From Winogradskyella algicola (lineage in GTDB: Bacteria; Bacteroidota; Bacteroidia; Flavobacteriales; Flavobacteriaceae): a stretch of DNA of 64,000 nucleotides. The notes beneath the pieces are model-generated. The model was not told the DNA's origin. It saw nothing but the letters and a program-made list of their open reading frames with translations, and did no database searches. Below, piece after piece: positions 1,478 through 27,810 of the stretch. The stretch lies in NCBI RefSeq assembly GCF_005869935.1, contig NZ_SZQF01000001.1:806001-870000 (forward strand), written 5' to 3'. The position numbers and the translations under genes were made by a program. Position 1 is the first letter of the stretch, and the number at the start of each line of letters is the position of its first letter.

Positions 1478-1548
1478 TCCACTCGTCGCTTACAAATGTT
1501 TACTCGTCTAAAAACAATCTTTTATGAGAAGTTGGGATTTTAAATTTG
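1478..1548 (+). promoter_or_regulatory. LytTR-type direct-repeat operator and promoter S1 (upstream of 1581 gene)
   Basis: Box 1 TCCACTCGT (1478-1486) and box 2 TTTACTCGT (1499-1507), each followed by C, are 21 bp apart. A perfect Bacteroidota -10 element TAAATTTG lies at 1541-1548, 63 bp after the start of box 1. Transcription would begin near 1555, which excludes the longer start at 1524 for the next gene. Confidence 0.65.
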
Positions 1549-1580
1549 TCATATCAAACAATCAAAGTCCCTCAAAAGCC

Positions 1581-1979
1581 ATGAGTAATATATTGACATT
1601 TTTTTCATTAACACTAACACAAATAGGAGTCTACTTGTATTTAAAGAATAGTTTAAAAGACTTTATAGAAAACTTTATACAAAATTATTCAATAGATAAA
1701 AAATCAACTGAAGTTAAGATACAGAAGATAGAAGCTCAAAAGAAGATTAAACCTAAAACGATTACTTATGAAGTTGAAGATAATAATCACGTTATTTTAA
1801 ATAAAACCTTAAGGCATTTAGAGTTTATATCTCAGTTTGAAATGTATTTAGAAGAAAAGCATTACAAAAACTTCTCAATAGAGTTTCTACAAGAGTTTGA
1901 AAAAATAAAGCACGAAGCACAGATAACAACAATAAAAACTACTAATAAGCTTAATTGCCAAGGATCTATAGCTGCTTAG
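1581..1979 (+). CDS. Small membrane-anchored coiled-coil protein, unknown function
   Basis: 132 residues from ATG 1581. A longer reading from TTG 1524 is possible in frame but would overlap the -10 element at 1541-1548, so the internal ATG is preferred. Residues 1-21 are hydrophobic (FFSLTLTQIGVYLYL), followed by a charged, lysine- and glutamate-rich region likely to be helical, and a C-terminal KTTNKLNCQGSIAA tail. I recognise no family. Its own LytTR-type promoter and its position before the receiver gene suggest that it belongs to the signalling regulon. Confidence 0.6.
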   Translation: MSNILTFFSLTLTQIGVYLYLKNSLKDFIENFIQNYSIDKKSTEVKIQKIEAQKKIKPKTITYEVEDNNHVILNKTLRHLEFISQFEMYLEEKHYKNFSIEFLQEFEKIKHEAQITTIKTTNKLNCQGSIAA

Positions 1980-1985
1980 CTAAAA

Positions 1986-2077
1986 ACCATTCGTCGACAC
2001 TTATCTACCATCCAGCGAAAGTAAACCTCTATCAACCGAATAAAGGTGGTCGTATTCTTCATTTCAATGTAACTTGC
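1986..2077 (+). promoter_or_regulatory. LytTR-type operator and promoter S2 (upstream of receiver gene)
   Basis: Boxes ACCATTCGT (1986-1994) and ACCATCCAG (2007-2015) are 21 bp apart, with a weaker third element TCTATCAAC at 2028-2036. A -10-like TAACTTGC lies at 2070-2077, 84 and 63 bp from the first two box starts. The -10 match is imperfect, but the helical phase agrees with the other sites. Confidence 0.6.
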
Positions 2078-2098
2078 GATGTTACAATTTAGCTAAAT

Positions 2099-2509
2099 AT
2101 GAAAAATCTTAAGGTTTTACTAATAGAAGATGATATGATAGAGGTAATGAAGCTCGGCAGAGCAACTTCATCTTTAAATCTTAATCATAAGATTATAGAA
2201 GCTAATAATGGTGAAGAAGCACTTAAACTCTTAGAAGAAAAAGATAAGCTTCCAGATATTATTCTTTTAGATCTAAACATGCCAAAAATCAATGGAATAG
2301 AATTTCTTAAGATTCTAAAAGCAGATGATAGATTAAAATATATACCAACTATAATTCTTACAACATCAAATAACCAACGTGATCTTTTAGAATGTTACAA
2401 GATAGGAGTGGCAGGTTATGTACTAAAACCTCTAAAATACGAAGATTATGTTTCTAAAATTGAAAAATTATTAGGATATTGGAGTATTAACGAATTAATC
2501 ACAGTTTAG
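2099..2509 (+). CDS. Single-domain response regulator (receiver only, Rcp1-like)
   Basis: 136 residues, entirely one receiver domain. The acidic pair is in LLIEDD near the N-terminus, the phospho-acceptor is Asp58 in LLDLNMP, the conserved Thr is in ILTTS and the Lys is in VLKPL. There is no output domain. The extended C-terminus and the RDLLECYKIGVAGYVLKPL region resemble Rcp1-type receivers that pair with kinases and relay phosphate. It probably exchanges phosphate with the kinases or Hpt protein encoded just downstream. It has its own LytTR-type promoter, so the system may regulate itself. The H-NOX gene starts about 100 bases later. Confidence 0.9.
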   Translation: MKNLKVLLIEDDMIEVMKLGRATSSLNLNHKIIEANNGEEALKLLEEKDKLPDIILLDLNMPKINGIEFLKILKADDRLKYIPTIILTTSNNQRDLLECYKIGVAGYVLKPLKYEDYVSKIEKLLGYWSINELITV

Positions 2510-2606
2510 TTAATATATTTTTCACAATCTTCTTTAAACATTTGTAAAAAGTGATTTGATTTTCTGTGGTTAAAAATGCCCTTTTTTGAACATAAAAAAC
2601 AAACCT

Positions 2607-3146
2607 ATGAAAGGTATAATCTTTACCGAATTTTTAGAACTAGTTGAGGAAAAATTTGGCCTAGCAATGGTAGATAAAATCATCAATCAGTCTAATTTAG
2701 AGTCTGACGGAGTCTATACATCTGTTGGGACTTATGAATTTTCAGAAATGCTACAACTCATTTCACACTTAAGCGAAAATACAGATATAGCAATAGATGA
2801 TTTGCTAATGGTGTACGCCGAGCATCTCTTTAAGGCGCTAATAAAGTCGCATCCTAACTTAGTATCGCACTATAAAGATCCAATGAGTTTATTAGCTTCA
2901 ATAGAAAATCATATTCATGTTGAGGTAAAGAAGATATATCCAGATGCTCAATTACCAACTTTTGAGTTAGAAGAGAAAACTGAAGACAAAATGGTAATGG
3001 TATATAAGTCTGATAAGGCATTGTATATGTTAGGAAAAGGCTTAATGTTAGAGACATTTAAGCTTTTTAATGTACCAGCAAATATTGACATGGAAAAACT
3101 TAATGATCAAGGAACAGAAGTTAGGTTTTTTATCAATAAAGCTTAA
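2607..3146 (+). CDS. H-NOX (haem NO/O2-binding) sensor protein
   Basis: 179 residues from ATG 2607; a TTG at 2586 would add seven residues with no support. Family features are the N-terminal MKGIIFTEFLELVE helix, the proximal-ligand region HVEVKKIYP with His104 as the expected haem ligand, and YKSDK (Tyr133, Ser135, Lys137) at the place of the YxSxR haem-propionate motif. Arg is replaced by Lys. H-NOX proteins bind NO through haem and commonly control a partner histidine kinase encoded beside them. Here the kinase starts two bases after this stop codon. The protein has no signal peptide and is cytoplasmic. Ligand specificity (NO alone or O2 too) cannot be decided. Confidence 0.88.
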   Translation: MKGIIFTEFLELVEEKFGLAMVDKIINQSNLESDGVYTSVGTYEFSEMLQLISHLSENTDIAIDDLLMVYAEHLFKALIKSHPNLVSHYKDPMSLLASIENHIHVEVKKIYPDAQLPTFELEEKTEDKMVMVYKSDKALYMLGKGLMLETFKLFNVPANIDMEKLNDQGTEVRFFINKA

Positions 3147-3148
3147 AT

Positions 3149-4738
3149 ATGAGCCAAGAAGAAGTAGATATTCTCAAAAGAACACTTGCAAGAGAAAGAG
3201 CTTCTAGAAAAGCAGCAGAAGAGATTTTGGAAGCAAAATCTGCAGAATTATATGAGCTAAACCAAAAACTAGAAGCCTCTCACAAAGAACTTACCACTTT
3301 ATATTCTAAAACCAACTCTCAATTACAAGGTGTTTTTGAAAACATAGCAGACGCCTATGTGATTATGGACCTTTGGGGAAATGTTCTAAAAATGAACCAG
3401 GCAGCTACAGATTTATTAGGATTCAATGCTAAGAAAGAAGACATTAATTTAATGAATCTTGTGCGTGAAGATGAAGTAAGCCGTGTTGCCCCTTCATTTA
3501 AGAGGTTATTGGAAAAAGGATCTATAACAGATTTTAAAGTTAATATCAAAACTAAAAACAGCGAGCAAAAACTAGTTCATATTAATGCAAGTACAATTTA
3601 CGAAGACGGAAGGGCAGTTGCGGCTCAAGGTATTGTTAGAGACATCACTTTAGAGAATAAATACCAGCAAGCACTTGTTGCAGAGAAGCAAAAATACGGC
3701 AACATTATCGCTAACATGAATCTTGGACTCGTTGAGGTAAATAATAATGATGAAATTTTGATGGTTAATCAAAGTTTTGAAGAGATGTCAGGTTACACTG
3801 AAGAAGAATTATTAGGTAAAAAAGGCGGAGACGTTTTTCAAGCAGATAAGGATAATGATGTTATAAAAAGAGAAAATGAAAAGCGAATTAAAGGTGAGTC
3901 TAATTCCTATGAATTAAAGGTTAAAAATAAATCAGGAGATATTAGATATTGGTTAATCAGTGGTGCACCCAATTATGATTTAAAAGGTAATACAATAGGT
4001 TCAATAGGTATACACTTAGATATAACAGAGCTTAAAAATTTAGAATTTCAAAAAGAAAAATTACTTCAAAAACTAGAAAAAAGTAATGAAGAATTACAAG
4101 AGTATGCGCATATAGTCTCTCACGATTTAAAATCACCTCTAAGAAGTATAGATGCATTAATAAGCTGGTTAAAAGAAGATAATAAAGATACACTTGATGA
4201 TGTAAGCCTTCGAAACATTGGCCTTATTGAAACAACGTTAGAAAAAATGGAGCAGTTGATCTCAGACATCTTAAATTATTCTAGTGTTGCCTCAGATAAC
4301 ACCGAGTCTGAACCAGTAAATACACATTTGTTGGTAGAAGACTTGCTCAAAATCTTATACATACCAGAGCAAATTAATATAAAATTGATTAATCCTTTAC
4401 CTGTTGTAAATGGTGATAAAACTAAACTTCAACAAGTGTTTCAAAATTTAATTAGTAATGCTGTTAAGTTTAATGATAAAGAAAAAGGATATGTAGAAAT
4501 TGGCGCAAAAGAAGATGGTAAATATTATAGATTTTCTATTAAAGACAACGGTATTGGTATAGAGCCCCAATTTCATGAAAAAGTTTTTAAAATTTTCCAT
4601 TCACTAAATAAAAGTAAAGATTCAACAGGTATAGGTCTTTCCTTAGTTAAGAAAATTATTAATCTCCATGACGGTAAAATATGGTTAGAGAGTAAGCCAG
4701 GTGAGGGCACCACATTTTACTTTACCCTAAAAAAATAA
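3149..4738 (+). CDS. PAS-PAS sensor histidine kinase, probable H-NOX partner
   Basis: 529 residues. Residues 1-55 are a strongly charged coiled coil, followed by two PAS domains (about 58-170 and 180-300). A linker helix leads to HisKA with the phospho-acceptor His325 in SHDLKSPLRS. The ATPase domain shows the N box NLISNAVKFND, the G1 box DNGIGIEP and the G2 box STGIGLSLVKKI. There are no membrane segments, so the kinase is cytoplasmic like its neighbour. The start follows the H-NOX stop by two bases and the FIST gene follows by one, a tightly coupled operon. In characterised systems H-NOX binds and inhibits the adjacent kinase when NO is bound; that role is inferred here from gene order. 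Confidence 0.9.
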   Translation: MSQEEVDILKRTLARERASRKAAEEILEAKSAELYELNQKLEASHKELTTLYSKTNSQLQGVFENIADAYVIMDLWGNVLKMNQAATDLLGFNAKKEDINLMNLVREDEVSRVAPSFKRLLEKGSITDFKVNIKTKNSEQKLVHINASTIYEDGRAVAAQGIVRDITLENKYQQALVAEKQKYGNIIANMNLGLVEVNNNDEILMVNQSFEEMSGYTEEELLGKKGGDVFQADKDNDVIKRENEKRIKGESNSYELKVKNKSGDIRYWLISGAPNYDLKGNTIGSIGIHLDITELKNLEFQKEKLLQKLEKSNEELQEYAHIVSHDLKSPLRSIDALISWLKEDNKDTLDDVSLRNIGLIETTLEKMEQLISDILNYSSVASDNTESEPVNTHLLVEDLLKILYIPEQINIKLINPLPVVNGDKTKLQQVFQNLISNAVKFNDKEKGYVEIGAKEDGKYYRFSIKDNGIGIEPQFHEKVFKIFHSLNKSKDSTGIGLSLVKKIINLHDGKIWLESKPGEGTTFYFTLKK

Positions 4739-4739
4739 T

Positions 4740-5837
4740 ATGTTAATAACTACTAAAAATACAGCAGAAATTGCAGAAGCAATTTCAAATCATGTTGGTA
4801 AAAATGCTGCATTGATAACAATCGGTGAGCACACAGAAATAGATATAAATGCACTTATTAGTCAGCTTAATAATTCTGATGTTAAGTTTATGGGTGGGCT
4901 TTTCCCAAAAGTCATTCATGGCAACTCTATTTTAGATAAAGGTATCGTTGTTAATACACTCAACAATTTAGATTCTATGTTTTTAGTTAAAAACATAAGT
5001 ACAAAGGATTATACAATCCCTAATGTTGTTTTTAATAAAAATCAAGATTACAGTCTATTTACTTATGTCGATGGTTTAACGTCCAATATTTCTCATTATT
5101 TAAGCGAGCTCTATGAAAACTATGGGATGCAGACTAACTATTTTGGTGGTGGTGCAGGTAGTTTATCATTAGAGCAACAGCCCTGTGTTTTTAATAACGA
5201 TGGTATTTTTCAGGATGCTGCTGTATTTGCAATTATGAAAATGTCTTCAAGAATTGGTGTGAGACATGGATGGAGTAAAATAGAAGGGCCATTTATTGTT
5301 ACAAGTGCAGAGGGTAACGTTATAAAAGAAATTAATTGGCAAAACCCTTTTGAAGTCTATAAGGAAGTTGTGGAAGCACATTCTGGCAAAACCTTTACCG
5401 ATGATAATTTCTTTGATATAGCAAAAGGATATCCTTTTGGTATTTTAAAAGATGATGCAGAATGTATCGTTAGAGATCCACTAATGGTAAACGAAAAAGG
5501 CGAATTAATTTGTGTCGGTGAGTTAGAAGATAATGCGGTTGTTGATATCTTAAACGGTGATAAAGATTCCTTGATAGATGCGGCCAAATCAGCAGCTGAG
5601 GATAGTGTAAAAAAGGCATCTGTGCCAAGAAAAGCAATTCTAATAGACTGTATATCCAGGATTTTATTCTTAGAAGATAATTTTGATAAAGAACTAAAGG
5701 CCATAACAAGTACCTTAGAAAATAGTTTTGATAACATATCAATTGGTGGTGCATTAACCTTAGGCGAAATTTCTTCTTATGGAGAAGGCTTCTTAGAGTT
5801 TTATAATAAGACTATAGTTGTGGGCTTGTTTGAATAA
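4740..5837 (+). CDS. FIST domain sensor protein (FIST_N + FIST_C)
   Basis: 365 residues. The N-terminal FIST part includes a characteristic FMGGLFPKVIHGN and a glycine-rich FGGGAGSLSLEQQPCVF segment. The C-terminal FIST_C part contains EGNVIKEINWQNPFEVYKEVV and ends with GGALTLGEISSYGEGFLEFYNKT. FIST proteins are proposed to bind small ligands such as amino acids and to be linked to kinases or chemotaxis proteins. Its start codon is one base from the previous stop and its stop overlaps the next start (TAATG at 5835-5839), so all three are probably translated together. The ligand is unknown. Confidence 0.85.
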   Translation: MLITTKNTAEIAEAISNHVGKNAALITIGEHTEIDINALISQLNNSDVKFMGGLFPKVIHGNSILDKGIVVNTLNNLDSMFLVKNISTKDYTIPNVVFNKNQDYSLFTYVDGLTSNISHYLSELYENYGMQTNYFGGGAGSLSLEQQPCVFNNDGIFQDAAVFAIMKMSSRIGVRHGWSKIEGPFIVTSAEGNVIKEINWQNPFEVYKEVVEAHSGKTFTDDNFFDIAKGYPFGILKDDAECIVRDPLMVNEKGELICVGELEDNAVVDILNGDKDSLIDAAKSAAEDSVKKASVPRKAILIDCISRILFLEDNFDKELKAITSTLENSFDNISIGGALTLGEISSYGEGFLEFYNKTIVVGLFE

Positions 5838-7003
5838 TGAGAATTGAAAACCACATATTAGATATTCTTCAGCTTTACGAGTATGCTATGGCGATAGGCA
5901 AATCGTTAGATTACAAGGAGAGTTGCGATTTGTTTTTAAAGCTTTTACTCAAAAGAAAAAACCTCAATGCTGCATGGATTATAGAGCCCAAAGATAACAT
6001 GTTGCAATCTACCTATGCCATTCCTTTTGGTGAAGAAATTAATATAAAAAAAGATGATGAAGCCTCTGGGTTTTTAGATACTATTGATTTTGGTAAAATA
6101 ATAACAGTTAATAAAGCTATTTCCAGAATAGCACCAATACCGATAGAAGAAGGAAAGATGGCAATTTTCAACTTAGATGCACAAGGTTATCTGTTCTTGT
6201 ATTCTAAAAAAAATAATATTAGTAATAAGGATTTATCGCAGTTAGAACCAGTGATCAAAAAGTTTACTATTAATTTAAAGGCATGTAAGGCTTTTAAAGA
6301 ACAAGAACAGTTACTTCACAACCTAGAGATGCAAAACCAAGAGCTTAGTGATTATGCACACATGGTGTCTCACGATCTAAAATCACCACTTCGTAGTGTA
6401 GATACACTTGCATCTTGGCTAATTGAAGACAATAAAGGTAAGCTAGATGATCATTGTAGTGCACAACTTGGTTTAATTCGTTCTAATGTAGAGAAAATGG
6501 ACGCCTTAATTAATGGTATCTTAGACTATTCTACTATTGGTAAAAACCAAATAGAAACTTATAAAGTAGATCTTAATGTATTGCTTAAAGACGTACTTAA
6601 TTTGATGGAGATACCTAGCCATATTTCTATCGACATAGCAGAACTGCCAACTATATTAGGTGATAAGTATAGGTTACAGCAATTGTTTCAGAATTTAATT
6701 AGCAACGCTGTAAAATATAACGACAAGCCTAAAGGTTTAATTGAGATTGGTGTAGAAGACAAAAAGCAATTTTGGGAATTCTACATAAAAGACAACGGAA
6801 AAGGAATAGACGAAGCTTACTTTAAAAAGATATTTAAGGTCTTTGAGAAGCTAGAAAACACACAAGATTCAACAGGAGTTGGTCTTTCTATAGTAAAGAA
6901 AATAGTAGATTTATATGGTGGAAAAATCTGGTTAACATCAGAGCTAGGTGTAGGAACCACATTTTATTTCACTTTAAAAAAACATAATGATGGAACAGCC
7001 TAA
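5837..7003 (+). CDS. GAF-like sensor histidine kinase
   Basis: 388 residues. The N-terminal 150 residues have a GAF-like pattern (start ILDILQLYEYAMAIGKSLD, core AAWIIEPKDN). A short coiled linker leads to HisKA with His179 in SHDLKSPLRS, then the ATPase domain with NLISNAVKYND, DNGKGIDEAYFKKIF and STGVGLSIVKKI. From the linker onwards it is closely similar to the kinase at 3149, so the pair probably arose by duplication with different sensor halves. With FIST directly upstream, I infer that FIST serves this kinase as H-NOX serves the first. It overlaps the Hpt gene by 17 bases. Confidence 0.88.
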   Translation: MRIENHILDILQLYEYAMAIGKSLDYKESCDLFLKLLLKRKNLNAAWIIEPKDNMLQSTYAIPFGEEINIKKDDEASGFLDTIDFGKIITVNKAISRIAPIPIEEGKMAIFNLDAQGYLFLYSKKNNISNKDLSQLEPVIKKFTINLKACKAFKEQEQLLHNLEMQNQELSDYAHMVSHDLKSPLRSVDTLASWLIEDNKGKLDDHCSAQLGLIRSNVEKMDALINGILDYSTIGKNQIETYKVDLNVLLKDVLNLMEIPSHISIDIAELPTILGDKYRLQQLFQNLISNAVKYNDKPKGLIEIGVEDKKQFWEFYIKDNGKGIDEAYFKKIFKVFEKLENTQDSTGVGLSIVKKIVDLYGGKIWLTSELGVGTTFYFTLKKHNDGTA

Positions 7004-7307
7004 TTTATCCTACATAGAAAGTATGTCTGGAGGAGATAAAGCATTTGAGCAAAAACTTATAGATATAATTCAAAATGAGTTTCCCGGAGAGAAGCAGGTG
7101 TACTTCGATAATCTTAGTGCTGGTAATTTTAAAGCTGCCGCAGAAAACGTTCATAAACTTAAGCATAAAATTAGTATTTTAGGCCTCACAAAGAGTTATG
7201 AAGTTGCTGTAGACTATGAGCACAATCTCCTAGAAAATAGCGCAGAAGGCAAAATAGAATTTGAAGCTATTTTGCAAAACATGACCATTTTTTTAGAGAC
7301 CCTTTAA
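6987..7307 (+). CDS. Hpt domain phosphotransfer protein
   Basis: 106 residues, or 105 if the ATG at 6990 is used. It is a helical bundle with the phosphotransfer motif VHKLKHKISILGL; His56 is the predicted phospho-acceptor. Free Hpt proteins shuttle phosphate between a receiver and a final response regulator. It lies between a kinase and the LytTR regulator, with a free receiver in the same cluster, so a full His-Asp-His-Asp relay is available: either kinase, receiver Asp58, this His56, then LytTR Asp53. The start lies inside the previous coding sequence, which suggests translational coupling. Confidence 0.85.
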   Translation: MMEQPNLSYIESMSGGDKAFEQKLIDIIQNEFPGEKQVYFDNLSAGNFKAAAENVHKLKHKISILGLTKSYEVAVDYEHNLLENSAEGKIEFEAILQNMTIFLETL

Positions 7308-7316
7308 TCTTGTTTT

Positions 7317-8030
7317 ATGAATTGTATTATTATTGATGATGAAGCAACTGCAAGAGCTATAATTAATCAATTATGCAGTAATGTAGATGGCTTAAATGTT
7401 TTAGAAGAGTTTCCTAATGCAATTCAGGCCATAAAGTATCTAAATCAAAACGATGTAGATCTTATTTTCTTAGATATACACATGCCAGACTTTACGGGTT
7501 TTGACTTTATAGAAACTATAAAAAACCCTCCAAAAATTGTATTGACCACCTCAGATTCTAATTTTGCAATACAAGCATTTGAGTACGATTGTATTGTAGA
7601 TTATTTAGTAAAACCCATCACGCCAGAGCGGTTTAAAAAAGCTATACAAAAGGCAGAAGCAATAGCGAACACTCCTAAAAAGACCAAAAAACCTGCAGAT
7701 GATGTAGAGACATCATCTGGCAATGATTTGTATGTAAATATTGATAGAAGACTCATAAAAATTGATATTCCGAGTATCTATTTGGTTGAAGCTAAGGGCG
7801 ATTATATTCAAATTAAAACTGAAACAAAAAACTATACAGTCCATTCAACCTTAAAGAAAATTGAAGAAAAGCTTCCCGATAACTTGTTCTTAAAAATACA
7901 TCGTTCTTACGTTATCAACGTAGATAAGATCATAGATATAGAAGATAATAGTGTTTTAATTAAAAAAGATGTCATTCCTGTGAGTCGTTCTAATCGGCCA
8001 GAATTAATGAAGCGTTTAAATCTACTTTAA
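7317..8030 (+). CDS. LytTR-family response regulator (predicted master regulator of the box regulon)
   Basis: 237 residues. The receiver has acidic IIDDE, phospho-acceptor Asp53 in FLDIHMP, and the TTSD and LVKPIT motifs. A linker rich in Lys and Pro follows (about 118-135). The C-terminal LytTR DNA-binding domain (about 138-237) shows LYVNIDRRLIKIDIPSI, VEAKGDYIQI, FLKIHRSYVIN and the terminal VPVSRSNRPELMKRL. It is the last gene of the H-NOX operon, nine bases after the Hpt gene. LytTR proteins bind direct repeats about two helical turns apart, and eight such repeats occur at promoters in this window, including the free receiver's, so it is the obvious candidate to bind them. Confidence 0.92.
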   Translation: MNCIIIDDEATARAIINQLCSNVDGLNVLEEFPNAIQAIKYLNQNDVDLIFLDIHMPDFTGFDFIETIKNPPKIVLTTSDSNFAIQAFEYDCIVDYLVKPITPERFKKAIQKAEAIANTPKKTKKPADDVETSSGNDLYVNIDRRLIKIDIPSIYLVEAKGDYIQIKTETKNYTVHSTLKKIEEKLPDNLFLKIHRSYVINVDKIIDIEDNSVLIKKDVIPVSRSNRPELMKRLNLL

Positions 8031-8102
8031 ACAGTGCGTCGAGCTCAAATTGTCGTTTAACGTTTCACTAGGTATAGTCATCGAATTATAAAATTTGTAA
8101 GG

Positions 8103-8199
8103 TGTTATTTCTTTTATCTTTAACCAAGATTCAAGAAGTAGGTTAAATATTGAATTAATAGCAGTTGAAGACAGAAGTTTTTACTTCTGTCTTTTTTTT
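8103..8199 (+). ncRNA. Possible short transcript ending at terminator 8170-8199
   Basis: A weak -10 (AAAATTTG, 8090-8097) stands about 73 bases before a strong intrinsic terminator, and no open reading frame of note lies between. It may simply be the 3' end of the LytTR operon transcript. Upstream, acagtgcgtc at 8031-8040 resembles half a LytTR box, but no partner is at the right spacing. I give this low weight as a separate RNA. Confidence 0.25.
8170..8199 (+). terminator. Intrinsic terminator after the LytTR operon
   Basis: Perfect 9-bp stem GACAGAAGT (8170-8178) and ACTTCTGTC (8183-8191), a four-T loop, then eight T residues (8192-8199). It ends the operon that begins upstream of the receiver. 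Confidence 0.9.
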
Positions 8200-8221
8200 A
8201 GCTAAAAATTTCCGCTCAGTT

Positions 8222-8313
8222 ACCATTCGTCGACACTTATTTGCATTCTAAAGTTATATTCGTTGCATTCAACAAAAAATAGGTATTTAAAACACGCCTT
8301 AGTATTACTTTTG
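8222..8313 (+). promoter_or_regulatory. LytTR-type operator and promoter S3 (non-coding transcript)
   Basis: A strong box ACCATTCGT (8222-8230) is followed by weaker boxes around 8242-8251 (TGCATTC core) and 8264-8272 (TGCATTCAA), so three elements in 21-22 bp steps. A perfect -10 element TACTTTTG is at 8306-8313, 84 bp after the first box, in the same phase as at S2. The next thing downstream is a terminator, not a gene. Confidence 0.65.
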
Positions 8314-8319
8314 ACAAAA

Positions 8320-8390
8320 GAGTCATTAAGTTTAATGGTTTTTTGGATTGATGGTAAGAATGAGGCAAAGGCGAAAGCCTTTGTCTTTTT
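8320..8390 (+). ncRNA. Candidate LytTR-controlled small RNA (about 70 nt)
   Basis: Transcription from the -10 at 8306-8313 should start near 8320, and a clear terminator with a GAAA loop ends at 8390. The product would be about 70 nt: a single-stranded 5' part of about 40 nt and the terminator hairpin. A 23-codon ATG frame (8335-8406) crosses the terminator and is probably accidental. If the terminator is leaky, the RNA would extend to 8526 or become the leader of the T9SS gene at 8674. No known RNA family is recognised. Confidence 0.45.
8363..8390 (+). terminator. Intrinsic terminator with GAAA loop
   Basis: The stem CAAAGGC, GAAA loop, GCCTTTG occupies about 8366-8383 with flanking extension, followed by TCTTTTT. 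It is near-identical in plan to those at 8491 and 11316. Confidence 0.85.
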
Positions 8391-8419
8391 CAAGTTTAGA
8401 AAATGATTAATAGCAATAT

Positions 8420-8490
8420 AGCATAATAGTTAGTGATATATAACCCCTTAAGAACTGATTATTATTTAACCCTAATTACTAACTAGGTAG
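8420..8490 (+). pseudogene. Possible remnant of the 3' end of a T9SS-domain gene
   Basis: The stretch CCCTTAAGAACTGATTATTA at 8446-8465 is almost the same as CCCTTAAAACTGATTATTAA, which encodes the C-terminal NPLKLIIN of the gene ending at 11277. Both are followed at a similar distance by a ggcaaaa-gcgaaagc type terminator. A one-base insertion breaks the frame in this copy. I read it as a decayed duplicate of the gene end plus terminator, but short AT-rich similarity could mislead. Confidence 0.35.
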
Positions 8491-8526
8491 AAAGGCAAAA
8501 ACGAAAGTTTTTTGCCTTTTTTTTTT
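8491..8526 (+). terminator. Intrinsic terminator with GAAA loop, third in tandem
   Basis: The stem AAAGGCAAAAAC, loop GAAA and GTTTTTTGCCTTT spans 8491-8517 (with one extra T bulged) and is followed by a run of T to 8526. It isolates the next promoter (S4) from upstream transcription. Confidence 0.85.
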
Positions 8527-8554
8527 AGATGGGTTATGCAAAAGAATTAGAAAA

Positions 8555-8624
8555 ACCATTCGTCGAAAGTAAACTGTAAACTAACGCAATAGTTGTAGTA
8601 GTAATCGAAAACCATAAAAGTCTG
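8555..8624 (+). promoter_or_regulatory. LytTR-type operator and promoter S4 (upstream of T9SS protein gene)
   Basis: Box ACCATTCGT (8555-8563) continues as CGAAAGTAAAC. A second element 21 bp later (8576) is weak. A -10-like AAAGTCTG at 8617-8624 lies 62 bp after the first box and 50 bp before the preferred ATG at 8674. Confidence 0.55.
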
Positions 8625-8673
8625 GTGAATAACTGAGGTAAATTTGCTTCAGGAAACAAAAACTTCCAGATTC

Positions 8674-11277: not shown

Positions 11278-11315
11278 CCCTTTTTTGATTACATAACTTA
11301 ACCTACATGGTAAAA

Positions 11316-11348
11316 GGCAAAAGCGAAAGCTTTTGTCTTTTTGTTTTT
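11316..11348 (+). terminator. Intrinsic terminator after T9SS gene
   Basis: Stem GGCAAAAGC (11316-11324), loop GAAA, GCTTTTGTC (11329-11337), then TTTTTGTTTTT. It has the same design as the two terminators upstream of this gene. Confidence 0.9.
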
Positions 11349-16727: not shown

Positions 16728-17951
16728 ATGAAATTAGCAATCGTAACAGCATATCCACCAAGTAAAGTCACTTTAAATGAGTACGCTTATCATTTGGTAA
16801 AGCAGTTCAGAAAGCATCAAGATGTTACAGAATTAATCTTGTTAACCGATAAGACAGAAGGTGCTAAAGATTTACAGTTTGAAGAAGATGGATGCAAGAT
16901 TACGGTAAAAGAATGTTGGTCGTTTAACAGTTATAAAACAATTTTTTCGGTAACAAAAGCAATCAACCAAACAAAGCCAGATTCAGTATTGTTTAATCTT
17001 CAATTTATGAAGTTTGGCGATAAAAAAGTAGCAGCTGCACTAGGATTAATGTTACCGTTGGTTTGTCAGCTAAAAGGAATTCCAAATATAGTATTGCTTC
17101 ATAATATTCTAGAAGAAGTAGATCTTGGAAGTGCTGGTTTTACATCAAACAAAATGATGCAAAAAATATATGGCTTTATAGGTTCTACTTTGACACGATT
17201 AATTCTAAAAGCAGATACAGTTGCTGTAACTATGCAGAAGTATGTAGATATTTTAGAAGAGAAGTATAATGCTAAAAACGTAAAATTAATACCTCACGGT
17301 ACTTTTGAAATACCAGCAGAACCTGATTATTCTTTACCAGAAGGACCATTACAAATAATGACCTTCGGAAAGTTTGGAACTTATAAAAAAGTAGAAGGAA
17401 TGATTGAAGCTGTAGAGAAAGTAAGACAATCTACAGGCTTAGATATGGAAGTAGTAATTGCCGGAACCGATAATCCAAATGTACCAGGATACTTAGCCAA
17501 AGTACAAGACGATTATAAACACGTGCCGCAAATAAGGTTTACAGGATACGTAGAGGAAGAAGATGTACCTGTAATTTTTAACGAAAGTGCTGTAGTTGTA
17601 TTTCCTTACACATCAACGACAGGAAGTTCTGGTGTGCTGCATCAAGCAGGAAGTTATGGTAAGGCTGTGGTAATGCCAGACTTAGGAGATTTAGCATTAT
17701 TAGTACAAGATGAAGGCTATGAAGGCGAATTTTTTAACCCAACAAGTGTCGATAGTTTAGCGCAAGCTATTGAGGCTATTGTAACCAATGATGCTTACAG
17801 GTTAGAGCTGGCCAAAACAAATTACAAAGCAGCAACTGCGCACCCAATGTCTCAAATTGCAGATATGTATGTGCAAACGTTTCAAACAATTATAGAGGAT
17901 AAAAACCTAGATAATCCTAAATTAAATAACGCTAACGAAGTTATTCTTTAG
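16728..17951 (+). CDS. GT4-type glycosyltransferase
   Basis: 407 residues, no membrane helix. The N-terminal Rossmann half begins KLAIVTAYPPSKVTLNEYA. The C-terminal half shows the GT-B donor-binding pattern: LQIMTFGKFGTYKKVEGMIE, VVIAGTDNPN, VRFTGYV-like IRFTGYVEEEDVPVIF, then FPYTSTTGSSGVLHQAGSYGK (the family's E replaced by a small Ser/Gly stretch) and NPTSVDSLAQAI. It would add a nucleotide-sugar-derived unit to the glycan moved by the flippase upstream. It ends 11 bases inside the convergent glycosidase gene. Its LytTR-type promoter is one of the clearest. Confidence 0.85.
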   Translation: MKLAIVTAYPPSKVTLNEYAYHLVKQFRKHQDVTELILLTDKTEGAKDLQFEEDGCKITVKECWSFNSYKTIFSVTKAINQTKPDSVLFNLQFMKFGDKKVAAALGLMLPLVCQLKGIPNIVLLHNILEEVDLGSAGFTSNKMMQKIYGFIGSTLTRLILKADTVAVTMQKYVDILEEKYNAKNVKLIPHGTFEIPAEPDYSLPEGPLQIMTFGKFGTYKKVEGMIEAVEKVRQSTGLDMEVVIAGTDNPNVPGYLAKVQDDYKHVPQIRFTGYVEEEDVPVIFNESAVVVFPYTSTTGSSGVLHQAGSYGKAVVMPDLGDLALLVQDEGYEGEFFNPTSVDSLAQAIEAIVTNDAYRLELAKTNYKAATAHPMSQIADMYVQTFQTIIEDKNLDNPKLNNANEVIL

Positions 17952-23836: not shown

Positions 23837-23907
23837 GCCATTCGTCTACACTAAATGTCTTATTAATCTAAATTAAAATTTTCAGGAGGCTTTATCCAAT
23901 ACTTTTG
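23837..23907 (+). promoter_or_regulatory. LytTR-type operator and promoter S7 (upstream of receiver-GT2)
   Basis: Box GCCATTCGT (23837-23845) continues CTACACTAAAT. A weak second element lies at 23858-23867. A perfect -10 TACTTTTG at 23900-23907 starts exactly 63 bp after the first box, and the ATG is at 23938. It lies in the divergent region shared with the minus operon. Confidence 0.68.
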
Positions 23908-23937
23908 AACCGAAATTAATACCCAAAATCACAAATT

Positions 23938-25122
23938 ATGAAAATTTTAGCCATCGACGACCAACAGTTAGTATTGCTTCCTTTAGAAAAGAGATTGAAG
24001 GAGTTAGGATACGATGTTAAAATAGAAACAGATGCTAATAAAGGATTGGCTATATACGATGATTTTAATCCAGATTTGGTTATCGTAGATTTTAACATGC
24101 CAAAAATTTCTGGATTTGATGTGGTAAACCATATTAGAATATCAAAAAATCCTGAAACACCAATTATGATTTTATCTGGTAATACACAAGATACAATTAT
24201 TACAGAGGCATTTGATTTGGGTGTTACAGATTACATGAAAAAGCCATTAAGTTTAAATGAGATTTGTGCCAGAGTTAAGCGACTAATAGGTGTGCCAGAG
24301 GCAACAATAAATAAGCCTTCTGAAAATATAATGATTCAGCAACGTTGTGTTGGTGTTGTAATTCCATGTTACAATGAAGAAGAACGATTGCTAAGTGATG
24401 AGTTTTTAAAGTACATAGATCAACATACAGGCTATCATTTATGTTTTGTAAATGATGGTAGCAAAGACAGAACTTTAGAGGTTTTGCATAATCTTCAAAA
24501 GGGCAGAGAAGACTTTATTACAGTTTATGATTGTGAAAAAAATGGTGGTAAGGCAGAAGCTGTAAGGTTAGGAATGTTACACATGGCGCAAAAAAAAGAT
24601 CTTGATTACATAGGGTTTTTAGACGCAGATTTATCTACCGATCTAAGAGATTTTGACGATTTGGTGAAGACAATTGAAAACTCAGATTTTAAAATTGTAA
24701 GTGGATCTCGAATTTCTAGAATGGGTGCAGACATCACCAAAGAGTCAGCACGTAAAATCATTAGCTTAACCATAAACTTTATTATAAGAAAGATTTTAAA
24801 AATGGATTTTAAAGACACGCAGTGTGGTGCTAAAATCTTTCATAAAGATGTCATTGATATTGCTTTTGGTAAAAAGTTTGTGACTCAGTGGATTTTTGAT
24901 GTAGAAATCTTTAAAAGAATGTCTATTCATTTTGGTCTTAAGAAAGCAAAGGCAATGCTTTGTGAGCAACCTTTAAAGCGTTGGATCCATGCAGATGGTT
25001 CTAAGTTGTCTATGAAAGACTCGGTAAAAATTGTAATGCAATTAGCACAGATTGCATGGATTTATAGAGCTAAAAAATCAACTGGAACAATTAGTGCTTC
25101 TAAAGCTTTGGAAGCAGCATAA
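23938..25122 (+). CDS. Receiver-GT2 glycosyltransferase fusion
   Basis: 394 residues. Residues 1-120 are a receiver domain with acidic AIDDQ, phospho-acceptor Asp51 in IVDFNMP, the Ser in ILSGN and the Lys in YMKKPL. Residues 137-380 are a GT2 transferase of the dolichol-phosphate-sugar synthase type: VVIPCYNEEE, FVNDGSKDRT, the metal-binding DADLST and TQCGAKIF. There are no membrane helices after the GT domain and no QxxRW motif, so it is not a processive synthase. Phosphorylation of Asp51 could switch sugar transfer directly. The fusion is unusual. It has a strong LytTR-type promoter and leads an operon with the next two genes. Confidence 0.9.
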   Translation: MKILAIDDQQLVLLPLEKRLKELGYDVKIETDANKGLAIYDDFNPDLVIVDFNMPKISGFDVVNHIRISKNPETPIMILSGNTQDTIITEAFDLGVTDYMKKPLSLNEICARVKRLIGVPEATINKPSENIMIQQRCVGVVIPCYNEEERLLSDEFLKYIDQHTGYHLCFVNDGSKDRTLEVLHNLQKGREDFITVYDCEKNGGKAEAVRLGMLHMAQKKDLDYIGFLDADLSTDLRDFDDLVKTIENSDFKIVSGSRISRMGADITKESARKIISLTINFIIRKILKMDFKDTQCGAKIFHKDVIDIAFGKKFVTQWIFDVEIFKRMSIHFGLKKAKAMLCEQPLKRWIHADGSKLSMKDSVKIVMQLAQIAWIYRAKKSTGTISASKALEAA

Positions 25123-25132
25123 TAATATATAA

Positions 25133-25615
25133 ATGAAGATAGGAATCATAATTATATTCAGAAATAACGAATCTTCAATTAGGGTAGAAAATCTAGCTAA
25201 ACATATGCGGTCTACAGATATTGTAAAGTTTTGTTTGGTCGATAATTACAGTAGCGACAATACTCTGCAATTACTACATGAGATAAAAGAAGAATGTTTA
25301 GATAAGGTAGAAATAGTCGAGATAAAAAAGATAGTTTCAGAATCGATGGCTAAAAGAGCAGGTGCGCGTTATTTGTCAAGCAATTATAATCTAAAATATG
25401 TAGGTTTTATAAACTTAGGTTCGGTTCAAAATAAAGGTCACGATCTTGAGCGCATTTTAAAGCAGATTACCCAAAATGATAATTACATAACTGATTTAAA
25501 AACGCTAATAGATAAAAACAATACAAAGCAAAACTTTATAAAAGGTGTTTTTTCCATTGTAGATTCAATTAAGGAAATTAATAAAAAATATAAGTCTTTA
25601 AAACCAAGTATTTAA
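25133..25615 (+). CDS. Degenerate GT-A-like protein
   Basis: 160 residues. The N-terminal MKIGIIIIFRNNESS and the following LVDNYSSDNTLQLL echo the nucleotide-binding strands of GT2 enzymes (compare VNDGSKDRT in the upstream protein). The place where a DXD metal motif is expected reads FINLGSV, without acidic residues, and the rest of the domain is missing. It is probably a short non-catalytic relative. It begins 10 bases after the receiver-GT2 gene and ends one base before manA, so it is in the operon. The function is unknown; it may pair with the active GT2. Confidence 0.6.
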   Translation: MKIGIIIIFRNNESSIRVENLAKHMRSTDIVKFCLVDNYSSDNTLQLLHEIKEECLDKVEIVEIKKIVSESMAKRAGARYLSSNYNLKYVGFINLGSVQNKGHDLERILKQITQNDNYITDLKTLIDKNNTKQNFIKGVFSIVDSIKEINKKYKSLKPSI

Positions 25616-25616
25616 A

Positions 25617-26618
25617 ATGAAAGCATATCCTATAAAATTTAAACCAATTTTAAAAGAAAAAATTTGGGGAGGAAATAAACTCTCTAAAATCTTGAATAAG
25701 AAAACAGATCTAGAAAATGTAGGTGAGAGTTGGGAGATTTCTGGAGTAAAAGGAAATATTTCAGAAGTAGCTAACGGAGACTATAAAGGGCAAAACCTAA
25801 ATGATCTTTTAAAAACATATACGTCAGAATTTTTAGGTTTAGCAAATTATGAGCGTTTTGGCGCTGAGTTTCCTCTGTTAATTAAATTTTTAGATGCAAA
25901 AACAGATTTGTCTGTACAAGTACATCCAGACGATAAAATGGCCAAGGCACAACACAATTCTTTAGGTAAGACCGAAATGTGGTATATCATGGATAGTGAT
26001 GACGATGCAGATATTGTTCTTGGATTAAAAGATGAAAGTGTAGATAAAAATATATTAGAACAAATTAACGCAAATAATGTTGAAGATGTCTTTCATAGAG
26101 AAAAAGTAAAGCAAGGCGATAGTTACTTTATTCCAGCAGGAAAGATCCATGCCATTGGCGCAGGTGTTTTGGCTGCTGAGATACAGCAAACTAGCGATAT
26201 TACTTATAGAGTTTACGATTGGGATAGAACAGACGATTCCGGTAATAAACGAGATTTGCATACTAAACAAGCTATAGAAGCAACAAAATCTTTTGAATCT
26301 ACAGGTAAGTGTAATTATGATTTAAAAGCTAATGAAAACAACAACTTGGTGTCTTGCGATTTCTTTACCACCAATATTTTTGAGGTAAAAGGATTAAGAC
26401 AAGTAAACTATGAGAATTTGGATTCTTTTGTTATTTACGTGTGTGTAGAGGGCGAAACACAAGTTGCAGTTGATGGTTACACGGAAACTCTAAAAATGGG
26501 TGAAACGGTCTTAGTGCCTGCAACAATGAAGTCAGCCTTATTTAATGGTAAAAATGCAAAGTTGTTAGAAGTGTATATAAAACCACAACAATCTCAAAGC
26601 AAAAAATTAGCTATTTAG
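25617..26618 (+). CDS. manA: Class I mannose-6-phosphate isomerase
   Basis: 333 residues, normal for the short bacterial form. It converts fructose-6-phosphate and mannose-6-phosphate, the first step towards GDP-mannose. Signatures are KPILKEKIWGG near the start, the zinc ligands in VQVHPDD, EMWYIM, the AGKIHAIGAG segment and QQTSDITYRVYDWDR. It starts one base after the preceding gene in the receiver-GT2 operon. That position suggests that the exported glycan contains mannose or that GDP-mannose feeds the dolichol-phosphate-type GT2. Confidence 0.92.
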   Translation: MKAYPIKFKPILKEKIWGGNKLSKILNKKTDLENVGESWEISGVKGNISEVANGDYKGQNLNDLLKTYTSEFLGLANYERFGAEFPLLIKFLDAKTDLSVQVHPDDKMAKAQHNSLGKTEMWYIMDSDDDADIVLGLKDESVDKNILEQINANNVEDVFHREKVKQGDSYFIPAGKIHAIGAGVLAAEIQQTSDITYRVYDWDRTDDSGNKRDLHTKQAIEATKSFESTGKCNYDLKANENNNLVSCDFFTTNIFEVKGLRQVNYENLDSFVIYVCVEGETQVAVDGYTETLKMGETVLVPATMKSALFNGKNAKLLEVYIKPQQSQSKKLAI

Positions 26619-26663
26619 TAGCCTTATAATTCTATATTTGCTCATCTTTAAAATTAAATTTTG

Positions 26664-27227
26664 ATGAGTTTAGAAAGAGAACTTCAAAAGCGAAGCGGAA
26701 ATCGTTGTGAGCTAAGTGGTGATACAGAAAAATTAGCGGTTTATATTGTTCCTGATGCCAAAGATATGGCTTTGTATGCTTCAGAAACTTGTATAGAACA
26801 GATGAACGATGCTGATAAAATTGATGCTAACCACTGGAGATGTCTTAATGATAGTATGTGGAGCGAGCATGATGCTGTTAAAGTCATGGCTTGGAGAATG
26901 CTTCATAGAATTGATGCAGATTGGACACAAGACTTACTTAATATGTTTTACATTGAAGATGACTTGTTAGAAGTGGCTAAAGCATCAGGTGATGGAGATG
27001 ATGATGAAAATAAAATTACGCATCGCGATGTTAATGGTGTGGTTTTAGAGCATGGCGATTCAGTTGTGCTTATCAAAGACCTCAAAGTTAAAGGCTCTAG
27101 CATGGTAGCCAAACAAGGAACTGCTGTTAGGAATATTAGACTAGATCACGAAAATGCCGAGTATATAGAAGGCAAAGTAGATGGCCAGCAAATTGTCATT
27201 ATTACCCAATACGTTAAGAAGATTTAA
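26664..27227 (+). CDS. PhnA/YjdM-like protein
   Basis: 187 residues from ATG 26664 (a TTG precedes at 26661). The N-terminal part has RSGNRCELSGD, a degraded form of the zinc-ribbon of PhnA/YjdM proteins. The C-terminal PhnA domain reads VNGVVLEHGDSVVLIKDLKVKGSS ... KQGTAVRNIRL. Despite the old name, the family is not shown to act on phosphonates. The gene lies 45 bases after manA without a visible terminator, so it may be cotranscribed. Its last four bases overlap a small gene on the other strand. Confidence 0.82.
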   Translation: MSLERELQKRSGNRCELSGDTEKLAVYIVPDAKDMALYASETCIEQMNDADKIDANHWRCLNDSMWSEHDAVKVMAWRMLHRIDADWTQDLLNMFYIEDDLLEVAKASGDGDDDENKITHRDVNGVVLEHGDSVVLIKDLKVKGSSMVAKQGTAVRNIRLDHENAEYIEGKVDGQQIVIITQYVKKI

Positions 27228-27364
27228 TCTGAGTTCTTTTTGTTGAAGAAGTCAAAACTCAGTGGTATCATAAATACCAAAAACAAGTAACGACCAGTTA
27301 TTAATCCAAAGAGTGTTATTGCAGCAAGAATAACCATTAAAATTACCTTATATTTATATTTCAT
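27224..27364 (-). CDS. Small membrane protein, 46 residues
   Basis: ATG 27364 to TAA 27224. The translation starts MKYKYKVILMVILAAIT, has two short hydrophobic segments separated by GLITGRY, and ends in FFNKKNSD. The basic N-terminus, hydrophobic core and charged tail are typical of a real small membrane protein rather than chance, and it fills an otherwise empty gap. It overlaps the PhnA-like gene by four bases tail to tail. No function can be given. Confidence 0.6.
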   Translation of the reverse strand: MKYKYKVILMVILAAITLFGLITGRYLFLVFMIPLSFDFFNKKNSD

Positions 27365-27412
27365 GACGTAAAGGTAAATTCCTTATTTATTTTATTCAAA
27401 ACAAAAACCAAA

Positions 27413-27676
27413 ATGTTGCAAATAAGACCAACATGCGAGCATTGCAATAAAGCGCTTCCCTACGGTTCTGAAGAAGCTATGATTTGCACTTTTGAATGTA
27501 CCTTTTGCAAAGATTGTGTTGAGCTTTTACATCATATCTGCCCAAACTGTGGTGGTGGTTTTGAAAAACGACCAATTCGTCCTGAAATATTACTCCATAA
27601 ATATCCTGTTTCTACTAAAGTAATTCTTAAGCCAGTAGACCTTGAGGCACACTATATTAAATTCAAGATTAAGTAG
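27413..27676 (+). CDS. DUF1272 zinc-binding protein
   Basis: 87 residues. It has RPTCEHCNKALPYGS, then CTFECTFCKDC and HHICPNCGGGFEKRPIRP, a ring of paired cysteines expected to bind zinc, and matches the DUF1272 family. The usual length is 60-90 residues. The C-terminal 30 residues continue beyond the conserved domain. Role unknown. Confidence 0.85.
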   Translation: MLQIRPTCEHCNKALPYGSEEAMICTFECTFCKDCVELLHHICPNCGGGFEKRPIRPEILLHKYPVSTKVILKPVDLEAHYIKFKIK

Positions 27677-27740
27677 TTATTTTTCTTACAATCTAGATAT
27701 TTGTAAATGTGTTGTTTATCGAAAAAATAAACCGCCAATT

Positions 27741-27810
27741 TCAAATTATCTAGACAAAAATACCATTTGTCGAATTTCTGGGAAGTAGAGAATATTTAGT
27801 CAGATATTAG
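27741..27810 (+). promoter_or_regulatory. LytTR-type operator and promoter S8 (upstream of second STAS gene)
   Basis: A weak box TCAAATTAT (27741-27749) and a good box ACCATTTGT (27762-27770, followed by CGAAT) are 21 bp apart. A -10-like GATATTAG lies at 27803-27810, 62 bp after the first. The match is weaker than at S1, S6 or S7, but the layout is the same. Confidence 0.5.

Follow-up and report, generated by a model that had tools for sequence, protein, structure and literature searches.

The closest described systems include LytTR-family regulators such as AlgR and AgrA, which have direct-repeat operators, and the NosP biofilm phosphorelay of Pseudomonas, whose kinase is NahK. To our knowledge, little is known of how NO leads to behaviour in Bacteroidota or of the DNA targets of Bacteroidota LytTR regulators, and our search found no literature on NO response or LytTR binding sites in these bacteria.

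As far as the available parts of the reports describe them, the LytTR regulators YpdB and HdrR/BrsR recognize repeats of 9-11 bp with spacers of 11-13 bp (PMC4847170), and the HdrR repeats lie near the promoter and are associated with positive autoregulation (PMC6193735). Here we describe a locus within a 64,000-nucleotide stretch of the Winogradskyella algicola genome (the window), whose boxes of 10 bp at a step of 21-22 bp resemble those described operators in repeat length, spacer and place near the promoter. In contrast to these systems, the Winogradskyella operator often has three copies rather than two and is joined to a flavobacterial -7 promoter, and its regulon is local, contains polysaccharide and type IX-secreted proteins and would receive kinase input through an Hpt-like protein. 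An earlier observation of phased LytTR-type boxes in the window (the original prediction) proved largely right.

The Vibrio harveyi circuit, in the available part of its source, comprises H-NOX, the HqsK kinase, the LuxU Hpt protein, LuxO and the Qrr small RNAs (PMC6769237), and the present locus likewise combines H-NOX, kinase, Hpt-like protein, response regulator and probable small RNAs. However, the output here is LytTR whereas LuxO is by its NCBIfam name a sigma-54-dependent regulator, the Winogradskyella small RNAs lack an Rfam match and lie beside the regulator gene, and two NO-type sensors are encoded in one operon. In Vibrio cholerae NosP/VpsS, according to the same part of that source, the NO-type sensor gene adjoins the kinase gene and the output is polysaccharide (PMC6769237), an arrangement similar to that proposed here. 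In contrast to NosP phosphorelays, the Winogradskyella FIST protein lies far below the cut-off of the NosP equivalog of NCBIfam (29.7 vs 450 bits) and is called only NosP-like, the output would be transcription controlled directly by LytTR, and no c-di-GMP enzyme was detected in the operon by Pfam. As to promoters, the part of the Flavobacterium psychrophilum study available to us gives the sigma A -7 element as TAnnTTTG at -12 to -5 and a TAnnTTGY class (SM5) that resembles the -7 element of our site S2; LytTR is named zero times in its main text, and the section on promoter classes describes no such operator (PMC9723704).

Results

Gene Content of the Predicted Phosphorelay Operon

The H-NOX gene stands beside a histidine kinase gene (Table 1), and H-NOX was present in 71 of the 74 loci having at least 5.5 kb upstream of lytTR. 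The stretch NHIHVEV.KIYPDA, which we take to hold the heme ligand, is common to the H-NOX protein and 6bdd and represents the conserved proximal histidine region. The phosphotransfer protein scores 18.4 bits against a Pfam gathering threshold of 24.6 and is called only Hpt-like; an HKLKH stretch was noticed in it by eye, and a homologue occurs in 80 of 80 loci. The regulator possesses both a receiver and a LytTR domain, the latter being the sole DNA-binding domain that Pfam detects in the operon, and among the best 60 of its 120 PDB matches the top ones span the receiver only.

Table 1. Operator sites, genes and probable small RNAs of the H-NOX locus (window coordinates).
Feature	Position	Strand	Details
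Site S1	1478..1548	+	boxes 1478, 1499; -7 TAAATTTG at 1541, perfect
Site S2	1986..2077	+	boxes 1986, 2007, 2028; -7 TAACTTGC at 2070 (TAnnTTGY)
Single-domain response regulator, receiver only	2099..2509	+	Pfam Response_reg 8.5e-22
H-NOX (heme NO-binding) protein	2607..3146 (ATG 2607)	+	Pfam HNOB 1.4e-35; PDB 6bdd_A 2.6e-74
PAS-PAS histidine kinase	3149..4738	+	domain search
FIST-domain protein, NosP-like	4740..5837	+	Pfam FIST, FIST_C
Second histidine kinase	5837..7003	+	HisKA, HATPase_c
Hpt-like phosphotransfer protein	6987..7307	+	Pfam Hpt E 0.0027, below gathering
LytTR response regulator, proposed box binder	7317..8030	+	Pfam LytTR 1.3e-20, Response_reg 5.9e-20
Site S0	8031..8122	+	decayed boxes 8031, 8052, 8073; -7 TATCTTTA at 8115
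Probable small RNA 1 and intrinsic terminator	8123..8200	+	covariance model R1 2.6e-9; member of model
Site S3	8222..8313	+	boxes 8222, 8243, 8264 (later copies weak); -7 TACTTTTG at 8306, perfect
Probable small RNA 2 and intrinsic terminator	8315..8391	+	R1 1.1e-10; member of model
Third related segment, ending in terminator	8396..8525	+	R1 8446-8522, E 0.0024; non-member
Site S4	8555..8646	+	boxes 8555, 8576, 8597; -7 TAAATTTG at 8639
Large secreted protein, C-terminal type IX secretion signal	8674..11277	+	DUF6923, Por_Secre_tail
3' end of secreted-protein gene, resembling small-RNA 3' module and terminator	11259..11343	+	R1 0.0036; non-member
Site S5	14951..15021	+	boxes 14951, 14972; -7 GATATTTG at 15014, one mismatch
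STAS-domain protein	15063..15344	+	Pfam STAS
Polysaccharide flippase	15367..16626	+	Pfam Polysacc_synt_3
Site S6	16630..16700	+	boxes 16630, 16651; -7 CAAATTTG at 16693, one mismatch
Group-1 glycosyltransferase (GT1)	16728..17951	+	Pfam Glyco_trans_1_4
Receiver-GT2 fusion (23938-25122), small GT2-like and phosphomannose-isomerase-like proteins	23938..26618	+	Pfam
Site S7	23837..23907	+	boxes 23837, 23859 (22-bp step); -7 TACTTTTG at 23900, perfect
Site S8	27741..27810	+	weak boxes 27741, 27762; -7 GATATTAG at 27803, poor

Boxes and -7 Elements in the Window

All eight first boxes of the original prediction are present: ACCATTCGTC is exact at 1986, 8222, 8555 and 16630, has one mismatch at 23837 and two at 1478, and is weaker at 14951 and 27741, the good copy of the last site being the second (27762). 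Second copies had been called weak at several sites, as is the case at S3, S4, S6 and S7, and the 21-bp step ascribed to the boxes holds in general but not at S7. The elements at 1541, 8306, 16693 and 23900 had been termed perfect or near-perfect, which stands, the one at 16693 having one mismatch. Among its other assignments, 15014 has one mismatch, 2070 is of TAnnTTGY rather than TAnnTTTG type, 27803 is poor, and 8617 (AAAGTCTG, S4) was mistaken. The likely S4 element lies at 8639, 84 bp past the first box, because sites 80-95 bp before the secreted-protein gene bear a perfect TAnnTTTG at 83 or 84 in 17 of 17 cases (our genome and all 16 relatives having such a site).

A genome scan for the motif had been set as a check, and its outcome depended on the motif. 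The single 10-mer with at most one mismatch occurs 135 times in the whole genome vs 208 times for the reversed pattern, that is, without enrichment, and single-box enrichment was therefore dropped as evidence. In contrast, the extended box NCCATTCGTCKANA occurs six times in the 3.36-Mb genome, five of them in the H-NOX locus and all on one strand, vs zero for its reversed-pattern control. In the window, the 10-mer with at most two mismatches gave 46 matches vs 32.5 +/- 5.7 in shuffles, one of 100 shuffles reaching 46.

Several sites have further features of their own. S1 precedes a small ORF (likely start ATG 1581), and its box/-7 spacing is 63 or 62 in G001, G003 and G033. S2 would be the promoter of the receiver/H-NOX/LytTR operon, implying autoregulation, and may use another sigma factor; in relatives its 21-bp copies are clearer, and TAnnTTGY lies at most 60 bp from the receiver gene in 12 of 21 loci. 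S0, absent from the original prediction, begins directly after the lytTR stop codon, was spotted by eye and scores below the profile threshold; a counterpart stands at the equal position in G017 and G028. The boxes and spacing of S5, upstream of the STAS gene and the flippase, were found again in relatives, and the S7 gene has a perfect -7 at 63 in 14 of 14 relatives listed. S8 precedes another STAS gene, the second of the locus (ATG 27892); its boxes are weak in relatives too, and it has no good -7.

Spacing and Conservation Across Relatives

A box profile built from 48 sites of 21 orthologous loci, with the -7 not included in training, gave 114 plus-strand vs 0 minus-strand matches in these loci, and 57 of their 58 pairs of box and perfect TAnnTTTG 30-120 bases apart are spaced at 62-63 or 83-84. 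Additionally, 80 loci were chosen by their LytTR protein, of which six were left out because, by their equal lengths, they were contigs of genomes already included (G-genomes). A box was present in 74 of the 74 remaining, with 242 plus vs 6 minus matches, and of their 97 pairs of box and perfect -7, 89 are in phase. Because the loci are related and the target genes lie mostly on one strand, the counts in both sets are not independent. The phasing of boxes across species is far beyond chance. In 70 three-box promoters a conserved C stands at -74, -53 and -32 relative to the -7 start; the position of the proximal box is fixed, and beyond it come one or two distal boxes at intervals of 21-22 bp. 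The operator consists of 10-bp direct repeats with an 11-12-bp spacer, which is the LytTR operator form.

Phased sites in the 74 loci lie upstream of the secreted protein (53), the receiver gene (40), GT1 (22) and STAS (20), and also of CAP-like lipoprotein (9), Ugd-like (5) and TolC-like (4) genes, the last three named by eye. None of the 22 GT1 units has a perfect -7, and it is likewise absent from 19 of the 20 units of STAS genes and from 31 of the 42 units of the receiver gene. The operator is retained where target genes vary, and genomes with different polysaccharide genes bear it on those genes. Relatives also have boxes away from the H-NOX locus; of 15 such regions, two were phased (L139, a secreted-protein gene; L151, a receiver-GT2 gene), L140 had a strong box and no -7, L144 and L147 scored below 12 and were unphased, and in the other ten no -7 matching at five or six positions stood at a distance of 62-64 or 83-85.

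Probable Small RNAs Downstream of lytTR

The promoters with -7 elements at 8115 (S0) and 8306 (S3) are each followed by a short stretch that ends in a terminator. These stretches probably belong to a recurrent small-RNA family downstream of lytTR. At S3 and in other loci, promoter and terminator stand 35-110 nt apart with no protein gene, judging from sequence only; for small RNA 2, no ATG ORF of at least 60 aa starts within 200 bp. At gathering score, Rfam finds only a tRNA in the window and has no match to these stretches. The covariance model R1 was built from 17 sequences, small RNAs 1 and 2 among them. The segment 8396-8525, with similar ones in G001 and G028, may be either its own transcript or read-through; the idea that it is what remains of a second copy of the secreted-protein gene was rejected, G028 having a similar segment and no such gene found in the 20 kb covered there.

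It is unlikely, although a real contender, that the S0/S3 stretches are instead a leader, decayed promoters or tiny-peptide genes. Consistent with such readings, the 5' hairpin exceeds shuffles only modestly (mean z of -1.2, n = 19), R1 matches also occur elsewhere in relatives, and small RNA 2 (srn2) contains a 23-codon frame from 8335. In the RNAalifold consensus only the terminator stem is retained. The 23-codon frame, however, is put out of register in the close relative G001 by a difference of one base, and all four R1 matches with E below 0.004 in our own genome fall in the H-NOX locus. Moreover, a phased promoter and terminator directly after lytTR recur in 23 rows retained of 32 among 101 loci, after removal of L178, L220, G016 and G036 as protein-coding starts (by eye) and of L153, L162, L164, L171 and L177 as repeats of G-genomes. 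The shared element RATTRATAGC, in favour of the non-regulatory readings, is common genome-wide (93 sites vs 18 for the reversed pattern), which ruled it out as locus-specific, and no function is therefore claimed for it; it has 77 plus vs 16 minus matches in the loci and four in the window, a number that 8 of 100 shuffles reach.

Proposed Mechanism and Direction of Control

The regulon of LytTR 7317-8030 is very probably one in which an NO-type phosphorelay acts through LytTR on the repeats of its own operon, surface-protein and exopolysaccharide genes and small RNAs. The two NO-type sensors, H-NOX and the FIST/NosP-like protein, whose genes adjoin those of two histidine kinases, would feed the Hpt-like protein, which would phosphorylate LytTR and probably also the receiver protein and the receiver-glycosyltransferase; we infer NO as the signal, and likewise its sign. 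LytTR is then predicted to bind the direct repeats (consensus CCATTCGTC(T/G)ACACT, 21-22 bp spacing) and to activate its own operon, the secreted surface protein, the exopolysaccharide genes and at least one small RNA downstream of lytTR.

LytTR at the proximal box is most likely an activator, because the conserved C of this box is 32 bp before the -7 start, which places it near -44 relative to the start of transcription and a little upstream of the -33 region. The chance is slight that the sites are repressor operators, at which LytTR would block RNA polymerase until the signal relieves the block; the proximal box does adjoin the -33 region, and sequence cannot give the direction of control. 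However, boxes at one fixed distance upstream of the -7, with one or two more upstream copies, are like the LytTR-activated operons of Streptococcus mutans, where the repeats lie 4-11 bp upstream of -35 in the part of the report available (PMC6193735).

The Proposed Binder of the Boxes

LytTR had been named as the natural binder of the boxes, and this predicted binding fits the comparative tests. In the genus Winogradskyella, a strict box occurs in 17 of 21 genomes with a LytTR orthologue vs 4 of 15 without one. Three of those four (G011, G018, G020) have no box with a -7 in phase. The remaining one, G027, has an H-NOX and one box with a near-perfect -7 (TAAATTTA) at 83; since this box is phased and the genome is 85% complete, the assembly may simply lack the LytTR gene. 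Conversely, four orthologue carriers, G029 among them, lack a strict box; the three checked by profile (G007, G017, G025) all have phased ones.

It is improbable that a different LytTR of the genome binds the boxes, with the local gene a mere neighbour or target. The genome has 12 LytTR domains, another of which could in principle bind, and contig 37 carries an extra pair of perfect boxes beside another LytTR gene; yet the step within this pair is 25 bp and neither 63 nor 84 holds a -7, and loci chosen for the local LytTR bear the operator in 74 of 74. Moreover, at 7 of the 11 other LytTR places (1.5 kb each side), six were without a profile match of at least 9, and the seventh, the L004 paralogue locus, had one match and no -7 in phase.

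The contig-37 double box, which forms a tandem repeat of 25 bp and precedes a very long ORF, was set aside as a regulon member because it lacks a -7 at 63 or 84; a perfect -7 lies at 107 from its first box and 82 from its second. The stretch before the ORF had been guessed to be an rRNA operon, and Rfam finds nothing there. By eye, the ORF product looks secreted.

Least probable is that the repeats, instead of being operators, are degenerate copies of a single promoter that was duplicated or of a mobile repeat. The small-RNA units do occur in tandem and resemble the 3' end of the secreted-protein gene, but conservation averaged over promoters of unlike genes falls mainly on the boxes and the -7 and is slight in the DNA separating them, and the spacing of sites is preserved in loci of many genera.

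Discussion

Beyond the original prediction, the analysis adds the probable small RNAs of the regulon, S0, the corrected S4 -7 and a possible other sigma factor at S2. The locus could, with somewhat less than even confidence, be a flavobacterial counterpart of the Qrr circuit built from different parts, in which the LytTR of an H-NOX/NosP-like phosphorelay uses a three-box operator to drive directly an undescribed family of tandem small RNAs beside lytTR as well as the genes for polysaccharide and surface protein. If this is true, the small RNAs may act on the same regulon, in which the second STAS mRNA leader bears RATTRATAGC and the mRNA of the secreted protein has a similar module at its 3' end. 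The DNA rule is precise enough for regulon prediction in many flavobacterial genera, mostly marine ones. The proposed regulon would connect sensors of the NO type with exopolysaccharide and with surface proteins exported by type IX secretion, and it offers a candidate small-RNA family.

Results

The original prediction placed eight sites (S1 to S8) in the window, each a LytTR-type direct-repeat 10-mer (box) at a fixed distance from a TAnnTTTG-like promoter element (-7 element). All eight boxes lay at the predicted positions, but a decayed site, S0, was missing from the list. The expectation that the motif is commoner than chance held only for an extended form. Taken alone the 10-mer says little: allowing two mismatches, the window had 46 matches where shuffles gave 32.5 ± 5.7, and with up to one mismatch it was rarer genome-wide than its reverse (135 versus 208). 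The longer box NCCATTCGTCKANA, however, occurred six times in 3,364,498 bases, against none for the reversed pattern, and five of the six copies were on the plus strand of the H-NOX locus. The sixth, on contig 37, lacks a -7 element at 63 or 84 and sits in a 25-bp tandem repeat. This repeat is perfect, holds two ACCATTCGTC boxes (L045:6298-6760) and has a different LytTR regulator gene on one side and a very long, secreted-looking ORF on the other.

Across relatives, a 16-column box profile, built without the -7 element from 48 sites that precede three genes and therefore trained on part of the sites counted, gave 114 plus-strand and 0 minus-strand matches at score 12 in 21 loci; Markov-1 random sequence gave 3 in three plus-strand passes of equal length. 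The predicted fixed distance was borne out, since 57 of 58 pairs of a box and a perfect TAnnTTTG 30-120 bases apart in these loci fell at 62-63 or 83-84 (29 at 63, 2 at 62, 21 at 83 and 5 at 84), with one at 32. A search with the LytTR protein retained 80 loci out of 488, which together held 270 plus-strand and 6 minus-strand matches. Every one of the 74 non-duplicate loci had a match (242 plus versus 6 minus), and 89 of their 97 box/-7 pairs lay at 62-64 or 83-85, although such pairs are not independent events, as loci are related and a single promoter can yield two.

Independence comes instead from the unlike target genes. The 172 ORFs behind phased sites (those with a -7 element at fixed spacing) in the 74 loci belonged to few families: the type IX-secreted protein (55 rows, 53 loci), the receiver gene (42 rows, 40 loci), the group-1 glycosyltransferase GT1 (22), STAS-domain proteins (20), orf151-like proteins (6), flippases (2), four single proteins and, named by eye, CAP-like lipoproteins (9), UDP-glucose-dehydrogenase-like (Ugd) proteins (5), TolC-like proteins (4), Wzc-like proteins (2) and a Wzy-like protein (1). 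In genomes G017 and G028 the operator precedes Ugd-like and Wzy-like genes, and in G017 also a TolC-like gene. Outside the cluster, a gene for a large secreted protein in G033 also has three boxes, with a perfect -7 element at 83 (L139:2993, minus strand).

Measured from the -7 start, three-box promoters (n = 70) had C in at least 70% at -74, -53 and -32, and two-box promoters (n = 86) had C peaks at -54 and, less strictly, -32. The proximal box is therefore fixed in position, with distal boxes at steps of 21 or 22 bp; in S7 the step is 22 bp rather than the predicted 21. With TAnnTTTG at -12 to -5, as in PMC9723704, the proximal C would lie near -44. For S4, the -10 proposed at 8617 gave way to an element further downstream (see table), and wherever a site stands 80-95 bp ahead of the secreted-protein gene (the own locus and those of 16 relatives), a perfect -7 was present at 83 or 84, in 17 of 17 cases. 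S8 is weak, yet weak boxes recur there in relatives. PMC9723704 assigns TAnnTTGY, the SM5 class, to what is probably an alternative sigma factor. Of 21 loci, 12 had TAnnTTGY no more than 60 bp from the receiver gene (a few maybe by chance), 3 had TAnnTTTG there and 6 had neither, which suggests that another sigma factor may serve the H-NOX operon promoter.

Features of the H-NOX locus (window positions)
Feature	Position	Remarks
S2, -7 element	2070	TAACTTGC; matches TAnnTTGY
Relay operon	from 2099	in order: receiver protein, H-NOX, PAS-PAS kinase, FIST protein, second kinase, Hpt-like protein, LytTR regulator
H-NOX	2607-3146
S0	from 8031	decayed; immediately 3' of lytTR stop codon; spotted by eye
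Covariance match	8123-8197	in model
Covariance match	8315-8391	in model
Short frame	8335	23 codons
Covariance match	8446-8522	outside model
S4, -7 element	8639	TAAATTTG; three boxes
Covariance match	11259-11343	outside model; 3' end of secreted-protein gene
S5, -7 element		GATATTTG; near-match, many relatives too
S6, -7 element		CAAATTTG; near-match, many relatives too
Receiver-GT2 fusion	23938-25122	receiver domain, family-2 glycosyltransferase
Second STAS leader	27820-27891	two RATTRATAGC copies, 22 bp apart

Downstream of the operon lie the large type IX-secreted protein, then a STAS protein with a flippase, and a glycosyltransferase; a GH5-like protein and two uncharacterised proteins are encoded on the opposite strand within this region, and the receiver-GT2 fusion, a phosphomannose-isomerase-like protein and a second STAS protein follow. 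Among the H-NOX loci of 20 relatives, those of G007, G017, G025 and G028 shared the relay, but the stretch compared did not contain the flippase and GT1 genes of the window. The Hpt-like protein was matched in all 80 LytTR-selected loci, as were both kinase queries (possibly to either kinase), the receiver in 78, H-NOX in 73 (71 of 74 where at least 5.5 kb upstream was present), the secreted protein in 61 and FIST in 49. The window H-NOX has YKSDK in place of the usual motif, YxSxR. A solved structure close to it, PDB 6bdd, carries an aldolase label in the match listing and is a Kordia algicida protein; the LytTR locus of that species (L231) had box matches, including one followed at 62 by a perfect -7. 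Within the genus, the strict box occurred in 17 of 21 genomes with a LytTR orthologue versus 4 of 15 without, three of the latter four having unphased boxes only. G027, which lacks the orthologue, is 85% complete and has an H-NOX gene, carried one box with TAAATTTA at 83.

Some promoters may drive small RNAs. No ATG ORF of at least 60 aa lies within 200 bp downstream of S3, where a hairpin and T run follow 54 bases after the -7 start, and no plus-strand ORF of at least 80 aa starts in 8031-8643. Promoter-terminator units recur directly 3' of lytTR (an automatic screen of 101 loci gave 32 rows, 23 of them retained after removal of four coding starts and five repeats), and a one-base difference in G001 shifts the short frame. 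With a covariance model of 17 such units, matches in the own genome at E < 0.004 were confined to the H-NOX locus, the next being on contig 41 (E 0.013); 27 of 60 genomes, own included, had a match at E 0.001 or better. Some matches lay outside the H-NOX locus, also in genomes without H-NOX, so the 3' module may extend beyond the regulon. Rfam gave no match for the candidates at gathering scores. The second STAS leader, which looks well conserved in the genus, is a possible RNA-level control element; RATTRATAGC occurred 93 times in the own genome versus 18 for the reversed pattern.

Discussion

The sites resemble the LytTR-activated promoters described in PMC6193735, with repeats upstream, on the same strand and at fixed distance. 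Among the open-licence papers listed, mostly as titles and abstract openings, we found no description of an H-NOX relay with a LytTR output, of a LytTR operator in Bacteroidota or of small RNAs of the candidate family; PMC5395568 and PMC10197871 deal with other subjects. According to PMC6769237, NO-bound H-NOX and NosP of Vibrio inhibit their kinases, and by analogy NO is the likely signal of the relay. If the sign is as in Vibrio, NO might inhibit the kinases and thus lower LytTR phosphorylation and polysaccharide production. The receiver-GT2 fusion may offer the phosphorelay a further, direct control over polysaccharide synthesis, acting on the enzyme itself.
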